Below are positions 1-47,172 of a stretch of 64,000 nucleotides of DNA, piece after piece. Each line of letters begins with the position of its first letter. Within the stretch, counting starts at the first letter, position 1. The DNA is taken from the NCBI RefSeq assembly GCF_030409055.1, contig NZ_CP116619.1:2891628-2955627 (forward strand), written 5' to 3'. The position numbers and the translations under genes were made by a program. Below the pieces are notes generated by a model. The model was not told the origin of the DNA. It did no database searches and saw only the letters and a list, made by a program, of their open reading frames with translations. This stretch comes from Trichocoleus desertorum NBK24. GTDB taxonomy: Bacteria; Cyanobacteriota; Cyanobacteriia; FACHB-46.

Positions 1-2760
1 TTCTTCAGGTCGAGAATCTCACCCTTCACATCCACGGTGATTTTCTTGGAGAGGTCGCCGTTCGCGATCGCCGTTGCCACCTCCGCAATGTTTCGGACTT
101 GGGCCGTTAGGTTGCCTGCCATCAAGTTCACGTTGTCGGTGAGGTCTTTCCAGGTGCCTGCGACCCCTCGGACATAGGCTTGCACACCCAACTTACCTTC
201 GGTTCCCACCTCCCGGGCCACTCTCGTTACTTCAGAAGCAAAGGAGTTGAGCTGGTCCACCATCGTATTGATCGTGTTCTTCAGCTCTAAAATCTCGCCT
301 TTGACGTCTACTGTAATCTTCTTCGAGAGGTCGCCGTTCGCTACCGCCGTTGTCACTTCGGCGATATTTCGCACTTGGGCGGTTAAAGAACCTGCCATGA
401 AGTTTACCGAATCAGTAAGGTCTTTCCAGGTTCCGGCGACCCCCGGCACGACCGCTTGCACACCGAGTTTCCCTTCGGAACCCACCTCCCGTGCCACTCT
501 GGTTACTTCAGAAGCGAAGGAGTTGAGCTGGTCCACCATCGTGTTGACCGTGTTTTTCAGCTCTAAAATCTCGCCTTTTACATCTACCGTGATTTTCTTG
601 GAGAGGTCGCCATTCGCCACCGCCGTCGTCACCGCAGCAATGTTCCGCACCTGGGCAGTCAACGAACCCGCCATGAAGTTTACCGAGTCGGTCAGGTCTT
701 TCCAAGTACCTGCTACACCCCGGACATCGGCTTGTACCCCCAGTTTTCCTTCTGAGCCTACTTCACGGGCGACTCTAGTTACCTCAGAAGCGAAGGAGCT
801 GAGCTGGTCCACCATGATGTTGATCGTGTTTTTCAGCTCAAGAATCTCGCCCTTCACCTGCACCGTGATCTTCTTCGAGAGGTCACCGTTGGCGATCGCG
901 GTCGCAACTTCGGCAATGTTCCGTACCTGGGCTGTCAGGTTGCCTGCCATCGAGTTCACGTTGTCGGTCAGGTCTTTCCAAACCCCCGCCACGCCTCTTA
1001 CTTCGGCTTGTACCCCCAGTTTTCCTTCGGTACCGACCTCACGGGCGACTCTAGTTACCTCAGAAGCAAAGGAGCTGAGCTGATCCACCATTGTGTTGAT
1101 CGTATTCTTCAGCTCTAGAATCTCGCCCTTCACATCCACGGTGATTTTCTTGGAGAGGTCGCCGTTTGCTACCGCTGTCGTTACCTCGGCAATGTTCCGC
1201 ACTTGGGCGGTCAGGTTGCCTGCCATCGAGTTTACCGAGTCGGTCAGGTCTTTCCAGGTACCTGCCACCCCACGTACTTCCGCCTGCACACCGAGTTTCC
1301 CTTCCGTTCCCACCTCACGGGCCACTCTGGTTACCTCAGAAGCAAAGGAGTTGAGCTGATCCACCATGATGTTGATGGTGTTCTTCAGCTCCAGAATTTC
1401 GCCTTTGACGTCTACCGTAATCTTCTTGGATAAGTCGCCATTCGCCACCGCTGTCGTCACTTCCGCGATGTTCCGTACCTGCGCTGTCAACGAACCCGCC
1501 ATGAAGTTTACCGAGTCAGTCAGGTCTTTCCAGGTGCCTGCTACCCCTCGCACATCGGCTTGACCTCCCAGCTTGCCTTCCGAGCCTACTTCCCGCGCCA
1601 CCCGCGTTACCTCAGAGGCGAAGGAGTTGAGCTGGTCCACCATCGTGTTGATCGTGTTCTTCAGATCCAGAATCTCGCCTTTGACATCTACGGTAATTTT
1701 CTTGGAGAGGTCGCCGTTTGCTACTGCGGTCGTCACTTCGGCAATGTTTCGTACCTGAGCGGTCAGGTTGCCTGCCATCGAGTTCACGGAGTCAGTCAGG
1801 TCTTTCCAGGTACCTGCTACGCCTCTTACTTCGGCTTGTACCCCGAGCTTTCCTTCCGTTCCCACCTCGCGGGCGACTCTGGTGACCTCAGAGGCAAAGG
1901 AGTTGAGCTGGTCCACCATCGTGTTGATCGTGTTCTTCAGCTCTAGAATTTCGCCTTTTACGTCTACTGTAATCTTCTTGGAGAGGTCGCCGTTGGCCAC
2001 CGCCGTCGTTACTTCGGCAATGTTCCGTACTTGCGCGGTCAAAGAACCCGCCATGAAGTTTACCGAGTCGGTGAGGTCTTTCCAGGTACCTGCCACGCCT
2101 CGCACTTCCGCTTGACCGCCGAGTTTTCCTTCCGCACCTACTTCCCGCGCCACCCGCGTTACCTCAGAGGCGAAGGAGTTGAGCTGGTCCACCATGATGT
2201 TGACCGTGTTCTTCAGCTCTAGAATTTCCCCTTTAACGTCTACCGTGATCTTCTTCGAGAGGTCGCCGTTGGCTACCGCTGTCGTTACCTCGGCAATGTT
2301 CCGCACTTGGGCGGTCAGGTTGCCTGCCATCAAGTTCACCGAGTCGGTGAGGTCTTTCCAAGTGCCTGCTACACCTTTCACCTCGGCTTGCACACCCAGT
2401 TTTCCTTCCGTCCCCACCTCACGGGCGACTCTAGTGACCTCAGAGGCAAAGGAGTTGAGCTGGTCCACCATTGTGTTGACGGTGTTCTTTAGCTCCAGAA
2501 TTTCGCCTTTAACGTCTACCGTAATTTTCTTCGAGAGGTCACCATTCGCGATCGCCGTTGCAACTTCGGCAATGTTCCGTACCTGTCCGGTGAGGTTGCC
2601 TGCCATCAAGTTGACGTTATCGGTCAAGTCTTTCCAGGTACCCGCCACACCTTTGACTTCGGCTTGCACGCCCAACTTACCCTCGGTGCCTACCTCGCGA
2701 GCTACACGGGTTACCTCAGAGGCAAAGGAGCTAAGCTGCTCCACCATCGTGTTGACGACT
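1..2760. repeat. 276-bp coding tandem repeat (HAMP array)
   Basis: The segment reading gctggtccaccat on the + strand (once gctgctccaccat, twice gctgatccaccat) recurs at 251, 527, 803, 1079, 1355, 1631, 1907, 2183, 2459 and 2735, an exact 276-base (92-codon) step with no indel. Units differ mainly by third-position changes and by a few alternating residues ([10 protein letters not shown] versus [10 protein letters not shown]). Confidence 0.95.
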
Positions 2761-3191
2761 TGAGCCGTTTGTAAAAACTCACCTTTGAGCTGGCGACCTT
2801 CAATTTCGGTCGGGATGGTTTGTGACAAGTCGCCATGCGCTACTGCCCGGATAACCCGCGACGTTTCTACGGTGGGCTGCACCAAGTCGCTGATCAAGCT
2901 GTTGACCGACTCCAAGCCAGCGCCCCAGGAACCGCCCGCATTACCAAGAGACGCTCGTTGGGTAATTTTGCCTTCTTTACCCACCACTTTGCCAATGCGC
3001 TCTAGTTCCTTCGTCATCCGCTCATTCAGCTCGATGACGTCGTTGAGGGCATCCGCAACTTTTCCTGCCATCCCTGTGTACTCATCAGGCACACGAACCG
3101 AAAAATTACCTTTTTTAACAGCGCTGAGTATTTTTAGTAACTGTCTGAGGTCCAAATTCTCGGTATCTTTAGTGACCTGTTCAGCGGGCAT
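1..3191 (-). CDS. Giant multi-HAMP signalling protein, probably hybrid histidine kinase (N-terminal part, runs off left edge)
   Basis: Leftward gene starting at ATG 3191 and still open at base 1, so at least 1,063 residues are visible. The first ~140 residues hold a HAMP-like segment ([11 protein letters not shown], then [17 protein letters not shown]). After that come about ten near-identical 92-residue units, each with the pattern [47 protein letters not shown] and [13 protein letters not shown]. There is no signal peptide or membrane segment, so the protein is probably cytosolic. Known proteins with this architecture (fungal Nik1/Os-1 type group III kinases and bacterial relatives) carry GAF, HisKA, HATPase and receiver domains after the HAMP array; those would lie beyond the left edge and are inferred. 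The opposite strand of the array is open by chance and is not coding. Confidence 0.9.
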
Positions 3192-3980
3192 AGCCTGATC
3201 CTTTTAGAACAATGAGGATATGAATAATCAAGGCGTTACTACTAAGCAAATCTGGCCTAAGTCCAGACTCGCTTGAGCAGCAGTCAAGGAGGAGGGAACG
3301 GCGTTAATGTGTCGATCGCTTATGTGGACATAGCTATGGCCTATTATCGATCGCGAAGGATGATACCTGACTTCTGCCAAAAGGTAGATGCTAAATCTAA
3401 AACAACAGTCCTGAGGGTTAATTGGATTCGTACGGCAGAAAAACCTGGATGGATGCTGTACGGTGAGTGATTCGGCACTGTCTAGGAATTGCAAGCGTTG
3501 CTTGAAAAACAAGCTCTGAAATAAATATACTCAAATCTTGTTGCAGGCGCTGTACGTTACTGTACCTGAGACGTATGTCCTTAATCTGGTGGTCAGCGTA
3601 CCCATCTATCGGCTAGGAAAACAGGTTGTTAAAGCAACAGGTGGCGTGAGAAATTGCGTTTCATTGCTAAGCGATCGCCTCACTAGCTATCAGAGAACGG
3701 TTGCGTCAGTAAGACACCTCAGTAACGCCCATCCTGTGAATTTTCTGCCTGTGGATTCCTAAACTCAATTCACTCCTAACCTGATCAAATTTAAATCAAA
3801 ATTGCCTGCTTTGGGACAAGCCAGATGCAAGCTAGATGCAAGCGATCGCTGGATAGGCTTACCCTTCGCGATCGCGGTCAGGGGATAGTTTGGATTACTG
3901 TGGTGATTGAGAGCAGTGGTGAGAAAGAGCATTGGAGCGATCGCTGCTTTACAACCTCAAAATTTAAGATTTTTATTTTT
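3192..3980. other. Intergenic region, no gene recognised
   Basis: About 790 bases between the divergent HAMP-array gene and the rightward gene at 3981. Only short unconvincing reading frames are present (for example 3228-3512 on the minus strand and 3538-3762 on the plus strand), without family resemblance or a ribosome binding site. Several HIP1 sites are clustered at 3830-3950. It must hold the promoters of both flanking genes, but no clear -35/-10 pair was identified. Confidence 0.6.
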
Positions 3981-4487
3981 ATGAAGCCGCACTTTCGAGA
4001 TCAAGTTGCTTGGGCACAAGCCGAATTGCTGATGCAGCCTGCTTTTATTCGCTTGTTGGATAATATCCGTAAGCAATTAGACCAATCGGATTGGAAAGGC
4101 AGCTATCAAGACGTTCAGGTTTGGCCGGAAAACACACCAGAGCCGCTTAAAGCTGAGGTGGCGCAATTGCAAGCTGAGCTGGCTACCGCTGAACCAGAAA
4201 AAGCTTCTGAGATTGAACAAACTTTGGCCCAACTGCCGACTCCCTTTCCTGGTTATCTCTTGTGTTTAGAAAAACAGGGCCAGCAAATGCAAGTTGATCT
4301 GTGGGAGCTGTGCTACCAAGTTTGTTTTCGTAATTACAAGCTGCTGCAAGATAGCTCTGACCAACAACCAGTTGAGATTGACACCAGCTTGATTGATGAT
4401 GAGATGGGAGAGGTGGATTGGAACCGCTTAGACGACAAAGCTCGACAGATCATCGAGCAAGTGTTTGCAGACCTGCCCCCACGTTAA
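3981..4487 (+). CDS. Conserved hypothetical protein (168 aa)
   Basis: The frame is open from further upstream, but the ATG at 3981 is chosen because the preceding translation is low-quality and HIP1-rich. The protein begins MKPHFRDQVAWAQAELLMQP, is acidic, and is probably mostly helical with no membrane segment. The middle is Glu/Ala-rich (residues ~55-80), followed by the segment FPGYLLCLEKQGQQM and a short region (LWELCYQVCFRNYKLLQ) that looks like a compact alpha/beta fold. The next gene, ygfZ-like, starts 25 bases downstream, so the two may be cotranscribed. I do not recognise the family; it resembles cyanobacterial proteins of unknown function. Confidence 0.75.
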   Translation: MKPHFRDQVAWAQAELLMQPAFIRLLDNIRKQLDQSDWKGSYQDVQVWPENTPEPLKAEVAQLQAELATAEPEKASEIEQTLAQLPTPFPGYLLCLEKQGQQMQVDLWELCYQVCFRNYKLLQDSSDQQPVEIDTSLIDDEMGEVDWNRLDDKARQIIEQVFADLPPR

Positions 4488-44185: not shown

Positions 44186-45568
44186 TCACTCTGCTTCCAG
44201 CCACCCCTTCACTGTCTCCGCTGGAATGCTAAATAAAGGATGATCGAAAATTGCCTTTAGCGCTTCTAGACCACCAGCTTTTAAAGCACTGACTAATCGA
44301 GCTTTTAACGTAGGGTTTCGTTTAATTTCTTGATGAATTGCTTCAGCTACTACTTCTGTAGAGGTTTGATCCATCTGAGCTAACTGATCAAGCAGTTGCT
44401 GAATTTCCGCTGCTGCCTCGGCAAGATTCTGCCGTTGCTCTGGTGAATAAATATTTTGAGTATCTTGAAATTTCGCGCCTGATTGAACCGTGTCAGCAAA
44501 ATTACCAAAAGTAGAGCCACGCATGTCATACTTTGGAGCTTCTTTATCAGCCATTTTCTCAACAATCCTTCGCAGATCAGTATTTTCTTGTCTTTGGATT
44601 TTTATTTGGTCACGATACTCTTCTAATCTTTCACCTTGTAGTTGAAGCTGAAACTGGTACTTCTCGTCAATTACTTTTATCTCTATCTCATACTGTCGCT
44701 TCAAAAACCTCTCAATTTCTGCCTTGTTAGCTTCAAGTGGCACATTTACTCGAATAACAAATGCACCATCATTTTTGTTCTCGATCGCCTGAATTGATAA
44801 CTCTGCTCCTTCAGCCTCAACTCTCAGCTTCTCTAATGAAATGAGTAATGCGTTCCAATCAACTCCATCGCGGAAAAAGAGATCAACAGTACTTAATACC
44901 TTCTGAAATAACTTCGTAAACTCACCTGGTTTAAACTTTTTATCAGGATCGCTTGGACGGCGCTCTTCTAGCTGCTCTGTTAAGCCAAGCCTGTGGTAAA
45001 TATAATCACAGCTCACATTACTTAAAATTGTACCTTCGCTAATTGACCAGTCTTGAATACAGGCACCAGTGAGTATTGCTCCCTCAAAGTTTGTATAGAC
45101 TGCCCTAGCCAATAACAAAATTGATTCGCTCAGATCGGCGTTTGTAAAATTAGCTCCGGTGAGATCTGCCTTAGTGAGATTAGCTTTATGCAGTTTAGCT
45201 CCGTAGAGGCAAGCGCCACTTAAATTAGCTTGTAAAAGGTCAGCACTACTCAAATCCGCTTCGTATAAATTTGCTGGCCCTAATGCAGCTTCGCTGAGAA
45301 AGGCTCCACGCAGGTCAGCTCCAGTTAAATCAACTCCAAAAAGGTAAGCCCTTTGAAGGGACGCTCTGGTGAGTAAGGCTTCTCTAAGCGAGGAGCCACC
45401 AAAATTAGAACCCCAAAGAATTGTGTTATGAAGATCAAAGCCATCAAGATTAATTCCACTAAAGCTAAGAACACTAAGGTCAGGATTTACATCAGGATGC
45501 TTTTCCCTCCACCTATTCCAAGCCTCTACACCTTGCCTTAGTAGAGCTACATGCTCTAAATTTGCCAT
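44186..45568 (-). CDS. Pentapeptide-repeat protein with coiled coil and conserved C-terminal module (460 aa)
   Basis: After a short helical head (about residues 1-30) comes a right-handed quadrilateral helix of A(D/N)Lxx pentapeptides (about 35-175, for example LTKADLTGANFTNADLSES). A middle domain (about 205-300) is unrecognised. A coiled coil follows (about 305-342), then a small conserved segment KYDMRGSTFGNFADTVQSG (about 346-364) and a helical tail. That last module is, from memory, also found at the end of cyanobacterial NACHT/TIR-type and other multidomain proteins, suggesting an adaptor role; this is inference. Soluble. Function unknown. Confidence 0.85.
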   Translation of the reverse strand: MANLEHVALLRQGVEAWNRWREKHPDVNPDLSVLSFSGINLDGFDLHNTILWGSNFGGSSLREALLTRASLQRAYLFGVDLTGADLRGAFLSEAALGPANLYEADLSSADLLQANLSGACLYGAKLHKANLTKADLTGANFTNADLSESILLLARAVYTNFEGAILTGACIQDWSISEGTILSNVSCDYIYHRLGLTEQLEERRPSDPDKKFKPGEFTKLFQKVLSTVDLFFRDGVDWNALLISLEKLRVEAEGAELSIQAIENKNDGAFVIRVNVPLEANKAEIERFLKRQYEIEIKVIDEKYQFQLQLQGERLEEYRDQIKIQRQENTDLRRIVEKMADKEAPKYDMRGSTFGNFADTVQSGAKFQDTQNIYSPEQRQNLAEAAAEIQQLLDQLAQMDQTSTEVVAEAIHQEIKRNPTLKARLVSALKAGGLEALKAIFDHPLFSIPAETVKGWLEAE

Positions 45569-45592: not shown

Positions 45593-45948
45593 TTAAGTTT
45601 CTAACTTGCGAATCCGAACAGTTTTTTCCGTGATGACTGTAAAGGCTTCTGGCAATTCTTCGGCATGTTGAGCAATCACTTGAGCAACAATGTCTGCTTT
45701 CTGGGCTGGAGACAGACCACCTAAGCGAAGGAGAATGACTCCTGAGGTGAGTTGACGTAGGCGAAAGACCAGTTCACCAAAATCCTTGTCGCTGGTCAGT
45801 AGCAAGGCAGATTCTTGGGTTGCGATCGCCAAGACCACATCATCCGTAATTCCTGGTTCCATCTCAGCCACAGACAAAACCTGATGGCCCTCTTGGCTCA
45901 ACCGTTCAACAACTTGCGTGTCGATATTTCATCTGCTAGGAAGTTCAC
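45593..45948 (-). pseudogene. DUF5615 PIN-like toxin with a one-base deletion near the start
   Basis: The GTG at 45948 overlaps the stop of the antitoxin gene (GTGA), the normal coupled start. It gives VNFLADE, then shifts out of frame and stops after 16 codons. The rest of the family is intact in the other frame from about 45930: NIDTQVVERLSQEGHQVLS, then TDDVVLAIATQESALLLTSDKDF (in part) and GVILLRL. Restoring one A (GAAAT to GAAAAT at 45927-45930) rejoins FLADEN-IDTQ. Without it, only a TTG start at 45901 would give a truncated 102-residue product lacking the first catalytic Asp. Confidence 0.85.
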
Positions 45949-46190
45949 GAAGCTACTTCAGAAAGGGGATAGACTACATCTGCGTGTAAAGCATTGGCAG
46001 CGAAGGCTAACGCGGCCTGGATGGCCTCACGAGTTAAGCGGGGGTGAGCTTCTAGAATCTGCTCTACGCTTTCGCCAGCCGATAGTTTCTCTAAAATCAA
46101 TTCCACTGTAATACGGGTGCCTCGAATCACAGGCTTACCCATCATAATTTTGGGATCAGATACAATTAATCGCTTGGGTTCTTGCTGCAT
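45945..46190 (-). CDS. DUF433 antitoxin-like protein (81 aa)
   Basis: Small DNA-binding-type protein: RLIVSDPKIMMGKPVIRGTR, then ITVELILEKLSAGESVEQIL and HPRLTREAIQAALAFAA, the usual DUF433 winged or HTH-like core. In cyanobacteria DUF433 genes are typically followed by DUF5615 PIN-like toxin genes; here the stop and the toxin start overlap by four bases. Likely role: antitoxin and autorepressor of a type II module. The first 15 codons recur as a relic upstream of the next DUF29 gene. Confidence 0.9.
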   Translation of the reverse strand: MQQEPKRLIVSDPKIMMGKPVIRGTRITVELILEKLSAGESVEQILEAHPRLTREAIQAALAFAANALHADVVYPLSEVAS

Positions 46191-46204: not shown

Positions 46205-46669
46205 TCATTCAGTTGGCAAAAACTCATCGCTCAAAGCCTGCTCCAGTGGATAAGGACAGGCTTCTGGAAAGGTTTCGTAGAGTAAATTAGTTTCTCGAAC
46301 TGCCAAATCTAAGCCATCTTCAAAACCTTCTTGCAGAGCTTCTTCTAGATAGGAAGACAGGCTGGGGTTTTGCTCAAGCAACCTTTTAATCTTGCGGCGT
46401 TGTGCTCGAATCGTAGCCTGCCAGCTACTTCCTTGAAGGTTGGGCTGGTACTGCCATTTCAGTAGATGCCCCAGTAGAATGGCTAGACGATTAACTAACT
46501 CACGTCGCTCTTGCCTACCCAAAGACTCGATCTCCTCAATCAAATTCGCCACATCAACTAAATCCCATTGATGCTCTCTCAGCAATTTAGCTTGCTCTTG
46601 TGTCCAGGCATGGAAATCGGCATCGTAGAGGGCTTTCATGGATTGACTGGGAGTTGATGTGTCTTTCAT
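46205..46669 (-). CDS. DUF29 family protein, copy A (154 aa)
   Basis: Shows the family pattern LYDADFHAWTQEQAKLLREH, VDVANLIEEIESLGRQERRE, LAILLGHLLKWQYQPNLQ, SWQATIRAQRRKIKRLLEQN and LDLAVRETNL. Start at ATG 46669 (or 46639). Full length and intact. It is upstream of DUF433 with a 14-base gap, so cotranscription is likely. Function of DUF29 is not known. Confidence 0.88.
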   Translation of the reverse strand: MKDTSTPSQSMKALYDADFHAWTQEQAKLLREHQWDLVDVANLIEEIESLGRQERRELVNRLAILLGHLLKWQYQPNLQGSSWQATIRAQRRKIKRLLEQNPSLSSYLEEALQEGFEDGLDLAVRETNLLYETFPEACPYPLEQALSDEFLPTE

Positions 46670-46720
46670 GATTTTGGGTGCAGATACAATCAATCGCTTG
46701 GGTTTGGCTGCATTATTCAG
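46667..46720 (-). repeat. Relic of a DUF433 gene start between the two DUF29 copies
   Basis: Read leftward, ATGCAGCCAAACCCAAG then CGATTGATTGTATCTG matches the start of the DUF433 gene at 46190 (ATGCAGCAAGAACCCAAG then CGATTAATTGTATCTG), apart from a one-base loss and a few substitutions. In the right frame it still reads RLIVSAPKIM against RLIVSDPKIM. This points to a tandem duplication of a DUF29-DUF433 unit followed by loss of most of one DUF433. Confidence 0.8.
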
Positions 46721-47172
46721 GTCGGCAAAAACTCAGAACTTAAGATTTGCTCTAGAGCATAAGGACAAATTTCTGGAAAGGTTTCATAGGGAAGTTCTGT
46801 TTCTCGGACGGCGAGATCTATTCCCGATTGGTAGGCTAACTGCAAAGCTTCGCTTAAATAAGCCTTGAGGCTAGGATTTTCTTGAAGTAGGGTTGCGACT
46901 TCGCGACGCTGTTCTCGAACAGTAGCTAGCCAGCTATTGCTTCGCTTTTCAGGCTGGAAATGCCATTTCAATAGATGTCCCAACAAAACCGTTAAACGAT
47001 TTCTGAGTTCGCGTCGTTCCTGCCTACCCAACGTTTCGATTTCCTCAATCAAATTTGCCACGTCAACCAGATCCCACTGCTTCGCCCTCAGTAATTTGGC
47101 TTGCTCTTGCGTCCAAGCATAGAAATCGGCTTCGTAGAGTGTATTCATCGTCTTCGGGTCGGCTTCTAACAC
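46717..47172 (-). CDS. DUF29 family protein, copy B (151 aa)
   Basis: Same family as the neighbour: LYEADFYAWTQEQAKLLRAK, VDVANLIEEIETLGRQERRE, LTVLLGHLLKWHFQPEKR, SWLATVREQRREVATLLQEN and IDLAVRETELPYETFPEICP. GTG 47172 is taken because AGGAG lies about ten bases upstream; ATG 47148 is the alternative. The leading residues LEADPKTM vaguely echo the DUF433 N-terminus. First gene of the leftward block. Confidence 0.87.
   Translation of the reverse strand: MLEADPKTMNTLYEADFYAWTQEQAKLLRAKQWDLVDVANLIEEIETLGRQERRELRNRLTVLLGHLLKWHFQPEKRSNSWLATVREQRREVATLLQENPSLKAYLSEALQLAYQSGIDLAVRETELPYETFPEICPYALEQILSSEFLPT

Follow-up and report, generated by a model that had tools for sequence, protein, structure and literature searches.

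Bacterial amyloid signalling sequences (BASS) have been described together with the BELL domain and NLR proteins (Dyrka et al. 2020, as presented in PMC7889193 and PMC8086366), and the review PMC7889193 asks if bacteria have signalling amyloids in arrangements other than that of NLR and BELL. Other systems that invite comparison are effector-associated domains (EADs) and bacterial Death-like domains (Kaur et al. 2020, 2021; PMC7159879, PMC8195603), and Cas11b, which provides a precedent for internal in-frame translation in defence genes (PMC11899642). Here we describe a cyanobacterial gene that ends in one of a family of C-terminal modules whose layout, by analogy, is that of BASS pairs, though the helical partner is of another kind.

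The window, a 64,000-nucleotide stretch of Trichocoleus desertorum NBK24 (contig NZ_CP116619.1, positions 2,891,628 to 2,955,627), contains on its minus strand an ATG-initiated open reading frame for a protein of 460 amino acids (44186..45568), which was confirmed in the window. The predicted order of its parts is a pentapeptide repeat, an RRM/ferredoxin-like domain, a coiled coil, a short motif and a helical domain. The pentapeptide right-handed beta helix (residues ~31-180; 45029..45478, minus strand) is recognized by PF00805 at E 3.8e-27 with 93.9 bits against a cut-off of 20.2 bits, and resembles solved pentapeptide proteins; Pfam returned nothing significant for the protein outside these repeats. 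The middle domain (residues ~202-304; 44657..44965, minus strand) is predicted by AlphaFold to adopt a beta-alpha-beta-beta-alpha, ferredoxin- or RRM-like fold (pLDDT 88), and a fold search with this model matched assorted ferredoxin-like chains at Z 5-6.7. On the strength of the model, this domain between the pentapeptide helix and the coil is an addition to the anatomy given by the first-pass annotation. The coiled coil that the annotation proposed (residues ~305-345; 44534..44656, minus strand) is indicated by the sequence and backed by the long C-terminal helix in which the middle-domain model finishes.

The MRGSTFGNFADTVQSG-type tail, initially read as one module, is real and recurrent but consists of two separable units. 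The first is a motif of 28 residues, rich in N, G and Q (YDMRGSTFGNFADTVQSGAKFQDTQNIY, residues 347-374; 44447..44530, minus strand), with a putative signalling role, which is disordered in the AlphaFold model of the monomer (pLDDT ~43). The second is a domain of ~85 residues (375-460; 44189..44446, minus strand), modelled with moderate confidence as four helices (pLDDT ~78) that correspond to no known fold in the fold search. A PDB sequence search and the fold search gave nothing above noise for the helical domain, and solved Death-like or EAD structures were not among the fold matches listed, which is not evidence of their absence. For residues 345-460 as a whole, Pfam gave nothing beyond noise at E<=1. 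Motif and helical domain together are referred to below as the cassette.

The middle domain is present in 65 of 386 cyanobacterial genomes and has three copies in the window's genome, where a second gene of this kind, of the pentapeptide-membrane type, lies at positions 1129-4409 of locus L240 (C1:4013500-4021000) and is split between its N-terminal and C-terminal parts by an IS630-like transposase. Middle-domain proteins of this genome at L239:2896-4170 and L240:3303-4409 end in a different motif, GDISG...VTNTINQL, followed by a different C-terminal helical domain, KGMLTELAEPSAIVQ...VLPQIA..FGL, that is also found in many pentapeptide proteins of ~700 amino acids. Judged by its sequence, this ending is possibly a second type of cassette.

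Tails were matched in 53 of the 386 genomes and in 36 of 143 genera at E<=0.001, with copies at up to 8 places in one genome. Across 84,980 species genomes the tail was detected at 80 loci, essentially all of them cyanobacterial, the exception being a MAG labelled Bacillus. The tail nearly always occupies the extreme C-terminus. Its carriers, identified with Pfam and NCBIfam, include NACHT-HEAT and EruA-like NACHT proteins, LRR-Roc-COR proteins, CHAT proteins with pentapeptides, SPFH/Band 7 proteins, a response regulator, TPR and HEAT proteins, an alpha/beta hydrolase, an FGE-sulfatase, and pentapeptide proteins with or without membrane segments; it also stands alone as proteins of ~120 amino acids. 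The early suggestion that the tail ends diverse cyanobacterial proteins was thus borne out, and the profile search across cyanobacteria showed that it is not confined to pentapeptide proteins. NACHT proteins are found as tail fusions, as had been expected, but TIR proteins appear as motif-sharing neighbours and not as fusions. The pentapeptide carrier, regarded at first as an unusual join, is instead the commonest (57 of 149 tails), and tail and middle domain occur together in 39 genomes where 9 would be expected. On a tree of the helical domain (n=149) the five architecture classes change label 50 times, against a minimum of 4 and a shuffled mean of 77. In this tree, many forks of which are unresolved, the window's helical domain sits near Roc-COR and pentapeptide tails. 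Its helical part is up to 87% identical to that of a Calothrix protein, and the whole cassette is closest to that of Calothrix HK-06 (72%) and then to those of Roc-COR proteins (58-64%). The genomes in these counts are a sample, and some of the related loci come from near relatives; where possible, sequences were clustered and permutation tests applied.

The cassette is modular, has a wide range of partners, and shares its motif at the protein level, in a pair-specific manner, with linked NLR-type genes. For 48 of 149 unique tail proteins the motif recurs in a neighbouring, non-homologous gene that has neither tail nor middle domain, compared with 3 of 2980 for shuffled queries; most of these partners are NLR-type ATPases. 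The query was the 28-38 residues before the helices, the threshold a BLOSUM62 local score of at least 45, and the neighbours were genes within 1.5 kb called as longest non-overlapping ORFs. The partners lie on the same strand in 46 of 48 cases, with a median gap of 140 bp, and in 43 of 48 the motif is no more than 60 amino acids from an end of the protein. Outside a large Nostoc class, a tail scores a mean of 83.3 with its own partner and 28.6 with permuted ones, the former value being reached by none of 10,000 permutations (p 1e-4). Paired motifs have a mean identity of 59%, and the same codon is used at 47% of identical residues where 40% would be expected; because these codons are nearly random, motif sharing is taken to be kept at the protein level, and a recent DNA repeat is ruled out for most pairs. 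At L218 and L048 the sharing may reflect recent copying. Partners with an N-terminal motif are mainly NACHT, NB-ARC-TPR, TIR-NACHT and AAA_35 proteins, plus a WD40 protein, and those with a C-terminal motif include NACHT-HEAT, LRR-Roc-COR, HEAT-TIR, TPR, HEAT and DUF6232 proteins. A linked motif partner was found for 23 of 37 stand-alone cassettes, and went undetected for two thirds of all tail proteins. The motifs, sorted by eye, form eight classes or more; the window's class is also carried by the tail proteins of L075, L116, L104 and L153, and in other genomes it ends linked Roc-COR (L075) and NACHT-HEAT (L116) proteins.

Several loci show further arrangements of the motif. In two of them (L042:3416-3955 and L055:4439-5029) DUF6232 proteins end in the motif of an adjacent stand-alone cassette, a sequence match that suggests that DUF6232 belongs to the motif signalling network. 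In Nostocales (L181, L183, L191, L194, L199 and others) a pentapeptide-membrane-middle-cassette gene heads a conserved pair, the second gene of which follows within ~40 bp, encodes a pentapeptide-middle protein and stops right after the motif; NLR-type genes with an N-terminal motif often follow. In L158 the pentapeptide-middle gene runs past the motif into an apparent CHAT-type domain. Short neighbouring ORFs at the L200/L214, L227 and L063 loci also hold copies of the motif, hinting at further small components that would consist of the motif only.

How the labour is divided between the two units of the cassette bears on its mechanism. The helical domain is the constant part, occurs on sensors and on effectors and also stands alone, as EADs do, and could itself be the homotypic adaptor, on an EAD or Death-like principle, with the motif as a flexible linker. 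We regard this as unlikely, since the linked partners mostly carry the motif without the helical domain, the motif agrees within individual pairs and is maintained at the protein level, and Pfam EAD models give no match to the window protein at E<=1. The motif could alternatively be a small non-amyloid beta element, such as a cap or pairing strand of a beta helix, that docks in a 1:1 or low-order complex. On inspection of the sequences several motif classes space their hydrophobic residues five apart, as pentapeptide coils do, and pentapeptide helices are frequent carriers; cassettes are nevertheless also found on proteins free of beta helices (Roc-COR, NACHT-HEAT, SPFH and the stand-alone forms) and AlphaFold leaves the motif disordered, so this reading too has a low probability.

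The reading that we favour, with somewhat better than even confidence, is that the tail is an exchangeable homotypic-signalling cassette, composed of a specificity motif and a constant four-helix domain, in an NLR-like immune or cell-death network. Carriers of the cassette would be receptors or scaffolds among NLR-like immune or cell-death proteins, and the window protein one whose pentapeptide part, a sensor or scaffold, is joined to an RRM-like domain and a coil. Activation would involve oligomerization of the body, upon which the motif would become ordered and template the same motif on a partner, which might be the NLR product of an adjacent gene, a second cassette protein or a cassette on its own; on the pattern of BASS pairs, receptor oligomerization would seed ordered motif assembly in the partner. 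The helical domain may then transmit or execute the output. An immune role for the network is a supposition. Polymerization of the motif, presumably by amyloid-like beta templating, is a further supposition, and a comparison with verified amyloid-signalling peptides (PMC8086366) gave a marginal likeness of sequence: for three amyloid-forming peptides the real mean score was equalled in 13, 8 and 1 of 200 shuffles, respectively, and for a non-aggregating peptide in 124 of 200.

With regard to the window's own genome, one copy of the tail was found and no second. Searches for a second motif with a 39-amino-acid query and a degenerate DNA pattern were negative, short-peptide searches being insensitive; no motif partner was found at five NACHT loci of this genome, a COR-A search found no COR protein, and the window gene's neighbours lack the motif. 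The first-pass annotation had proposed an adaptor that recruits or inhibits effectors bearing the same tail. Calothrix sp. HK-06, in which a pentapeptide protein and an LRR protein (L153, L157) both bear the cassette, would accommodate such an adaptor, but the common element elsewhere is the short motif, often on receptors without the helical tail, and the combination of a single tail and no motif partner, as far as the searches reach, leaves the recruitment of same-tail effectors unsupported in this strain. We hold that model to be quite improbable. The same census would also suit a decaying orphan, that is, a cassette without present function whose partner receptor has been lost, and the splitting of the related pentapeptide gene at L240 by a transposase points in that direction. 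All 460 codons of the frame are, however, undisturbed, and conservation of the cassette is high, reaching 87% identity to a Calothrix protein in the helical part, and we doubt that decay is the explanation.

A comparison with a congener (G387) shows that the cassette has been swapped in place at a syntenic locus. At the DNA level the genes on either side are 85-91% identical. The orthologue, which has a longer N-terminus, shares 87% identity with the window protein over the pentapeptide part, but 41% over the middle domain, 13% over the coil, 16% over the motif and 24% over the helical domain. Its cassette belongs to the INTGGG...DYIQGDY class and is closest, at 55% identity, to a cassette from another genus; elsewhere in its genome the congener has two further tail proteins, adjacent to each other, with a motif of this class. 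The toxin-antitoxin block reported beside the window gene is real, and consists of a DUF5615 (PIN-like, toxin-type) gene (45593..45901, minus strand; PF18480, E 1.8e-18) and a DUF433 (antitoxin-type) gene (45945..46190, minus strand; PF04255, E 1.3e-25). Because the pair is missing from the congener's syntenic locus, it is regarded as an incidental neighbour rather than part of the system, and a linkage to it was rejected. Tandem paralogous genes at 46205-47172 of the window, which we take to encode DUF29-like proteins, adjoin the locus and are kept in the congener.

Internal in-frame start codons with Shine-Dalgarno sequences are enriched just before the motif. In the window protein the candidate is Met339 (44552..44554, minus strand), just upstream of the cassette and at the position of the start codons of stand-alone relatives; a candidate Shine-Dalgarno sequence, AAGGA (44566..44570, minus strand), precedes the ATG by 11 nt, a rather long spacing. 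Together these would define a possible nested in-frame gene for a free motif and helical domain of 122 amino acids (44186..44554, minus strand). The counterpart of Met339 in the congener is Met463, with AGGAG. An in-frame Met just before the motif is present in 84 of 114 large tail proteins against an expectation of 38 (86 under a slightly wider rule). Candidates were picked by residues and positions typical of stand-alone starts and not by their Shine-Dalgarno sequences, which reach at least 5 nt at 34.9% of internal Met codons and at 3.3% of the other Met codons of the same genes, a tenfold enrichment. The corresponding figure for gene starts in the loci is 13.2%, a control that is lowered by the mechanical placement of those starts. 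Glycine codons near the internal Met are GGA in 76% of cases and in 39% elsewhere (p 1.8e-6). Clustering at 45% identity leaves the Shine-Dalgarno enrichment in place, at 12.4 of 48 clusters and 7 of 236 for the controls (p 3e-6).

These sequence features may be either scars of cassette fusion or internal starts in use, and both fit the cassette as a unit of exchange. In favour of mere scars, left by recent fusion to stand-alone cassette genes and untranslated, nested and stand-alone products have median lengths of 123 and 126 amino acids and similar first residues, and cassettes are swapped as units. Against this, scars would be expected to decay, and the internal Shine-Dalgarno sequences are stronger than those of ordinary starts, the preference for GGA is marked and the enrichment survives the clustering of related sequences. 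We put the chances of scars alone at close to even, though slightly short of it. Rather more tentatively, we propose that the nested in-frame gene is used, and that a free motif and helical adaptor of ~122 amino acids is made beside the full receptor. The seed of a homotypic, possibly amyloid, signalosome and its soluble partner would then come from one gene, and the cassette would be swapped between receptors with its start site to change signalling specificity. In this strain, where no partner with the same motif was found, the protein could meet that motif only on further copies of itself and on any nested product of 122 amino acids, and would be an orphan unless this product is its partner. 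As with Cas11 (PMC11899642), a small C-terminal product could arise inside a larger defence gene; the proteins are unrelated, and the case here is built from sequence alone.

A single set of interchangeable motifs connects NLRs, Roc-COR GTPases, CHAT proteins and pentapeptide scaffolds by way of the cassette. Adjacent cassette pairs make its specificity directly testable, and the swap between congeners amounts to a natural experiment in rewiring at a single locus. Should the internal starts be in use, many genes annotated with a single product encode a receptor and its own soluble adaptor.

The locus can be set against the described systems on several counts. Like EADs and Death-like domains, the cassette includes a small non-catalytic helical domain that occurs on sensors and effectors. 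EADs have several copies per genome in multicellular bacteria; tails number up to 8 in some genomes and one in the window's genome. Unlike in EADs, specificity seems to reside in the motif and not in the helical domain. The window protein drew no EAD hit from Pfam at E<=1, and an EAD1 match in the L062 protein was insignificant (E 0.075). The middle domain resembles bacterial TRADD-N (PF20694; PMC7159879, PMC8195603) in its predicted RRM/ferredoxin topology and in its place at the junction of the constant and variable parts of pentapeptide proteins. Pfam nevertheless found no PF20694 match in the window protein, an hhalign comparison with six cyanobacterial PF20694 members gave a probability of 1.4%, with 1 of 20 column-shuffled controls scoring better, and the TRADD-N motif of a small residue and Ser in the beta2-beta3 turn is absent, the window protein reading NKNDG and the alignment lacking a conserved Ser; an assignment to TRADD-N was rejected. 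The cassette's only link to a defence library is a match of the PADLOC candidate model PDC-M14B, whose C-terminal ~90 positions align with the tail at residues 985-1081 of L083:1010-4333 (E 1.6e-5); the model, which has few members, matches three other proteins weakly, and the match is weak overall.

The closest likeness is to BASS. As BASS are described in the accounts cited above, both systems have a motif of 20-40 amino acids that is common to adjacent genes and lies at one end of an NLR and one end of a small protein with a helical domain; both comprise many motif families, occur in filamentous cyanobacteria and have CHAT and TIR partners, a likeness of description rather than of BASS1-10 profiles. 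A terminal motif on the proteins of two adjacent genes is seen at the level of the family (48 of 149) and not at the window gene, and NLR partners with an N-terminal motif are likewise seen at the family level (NACHT, NB-ARC, TIR-NACHT). By the same accounts the motif of BELL proteins is C-terminal to the helical domain, whereas here it is N-terminal. The helical domain here, unlike BELL, has no transmembrane helix (of 152 helical domains, no more than 3 attain a Kyte-Doolittle value of 1.6 over 19 residues), and many receptors and enzymes have it as a fusion. The present family is set further apart from BASS as so described by its pentapeptide/RRM carriers and candidate internal start sites. 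By analogy, cassette pairs would work in the manner of BASS/BELL-NLR pairs, with a helical domain that falls outside the definition of BELL.
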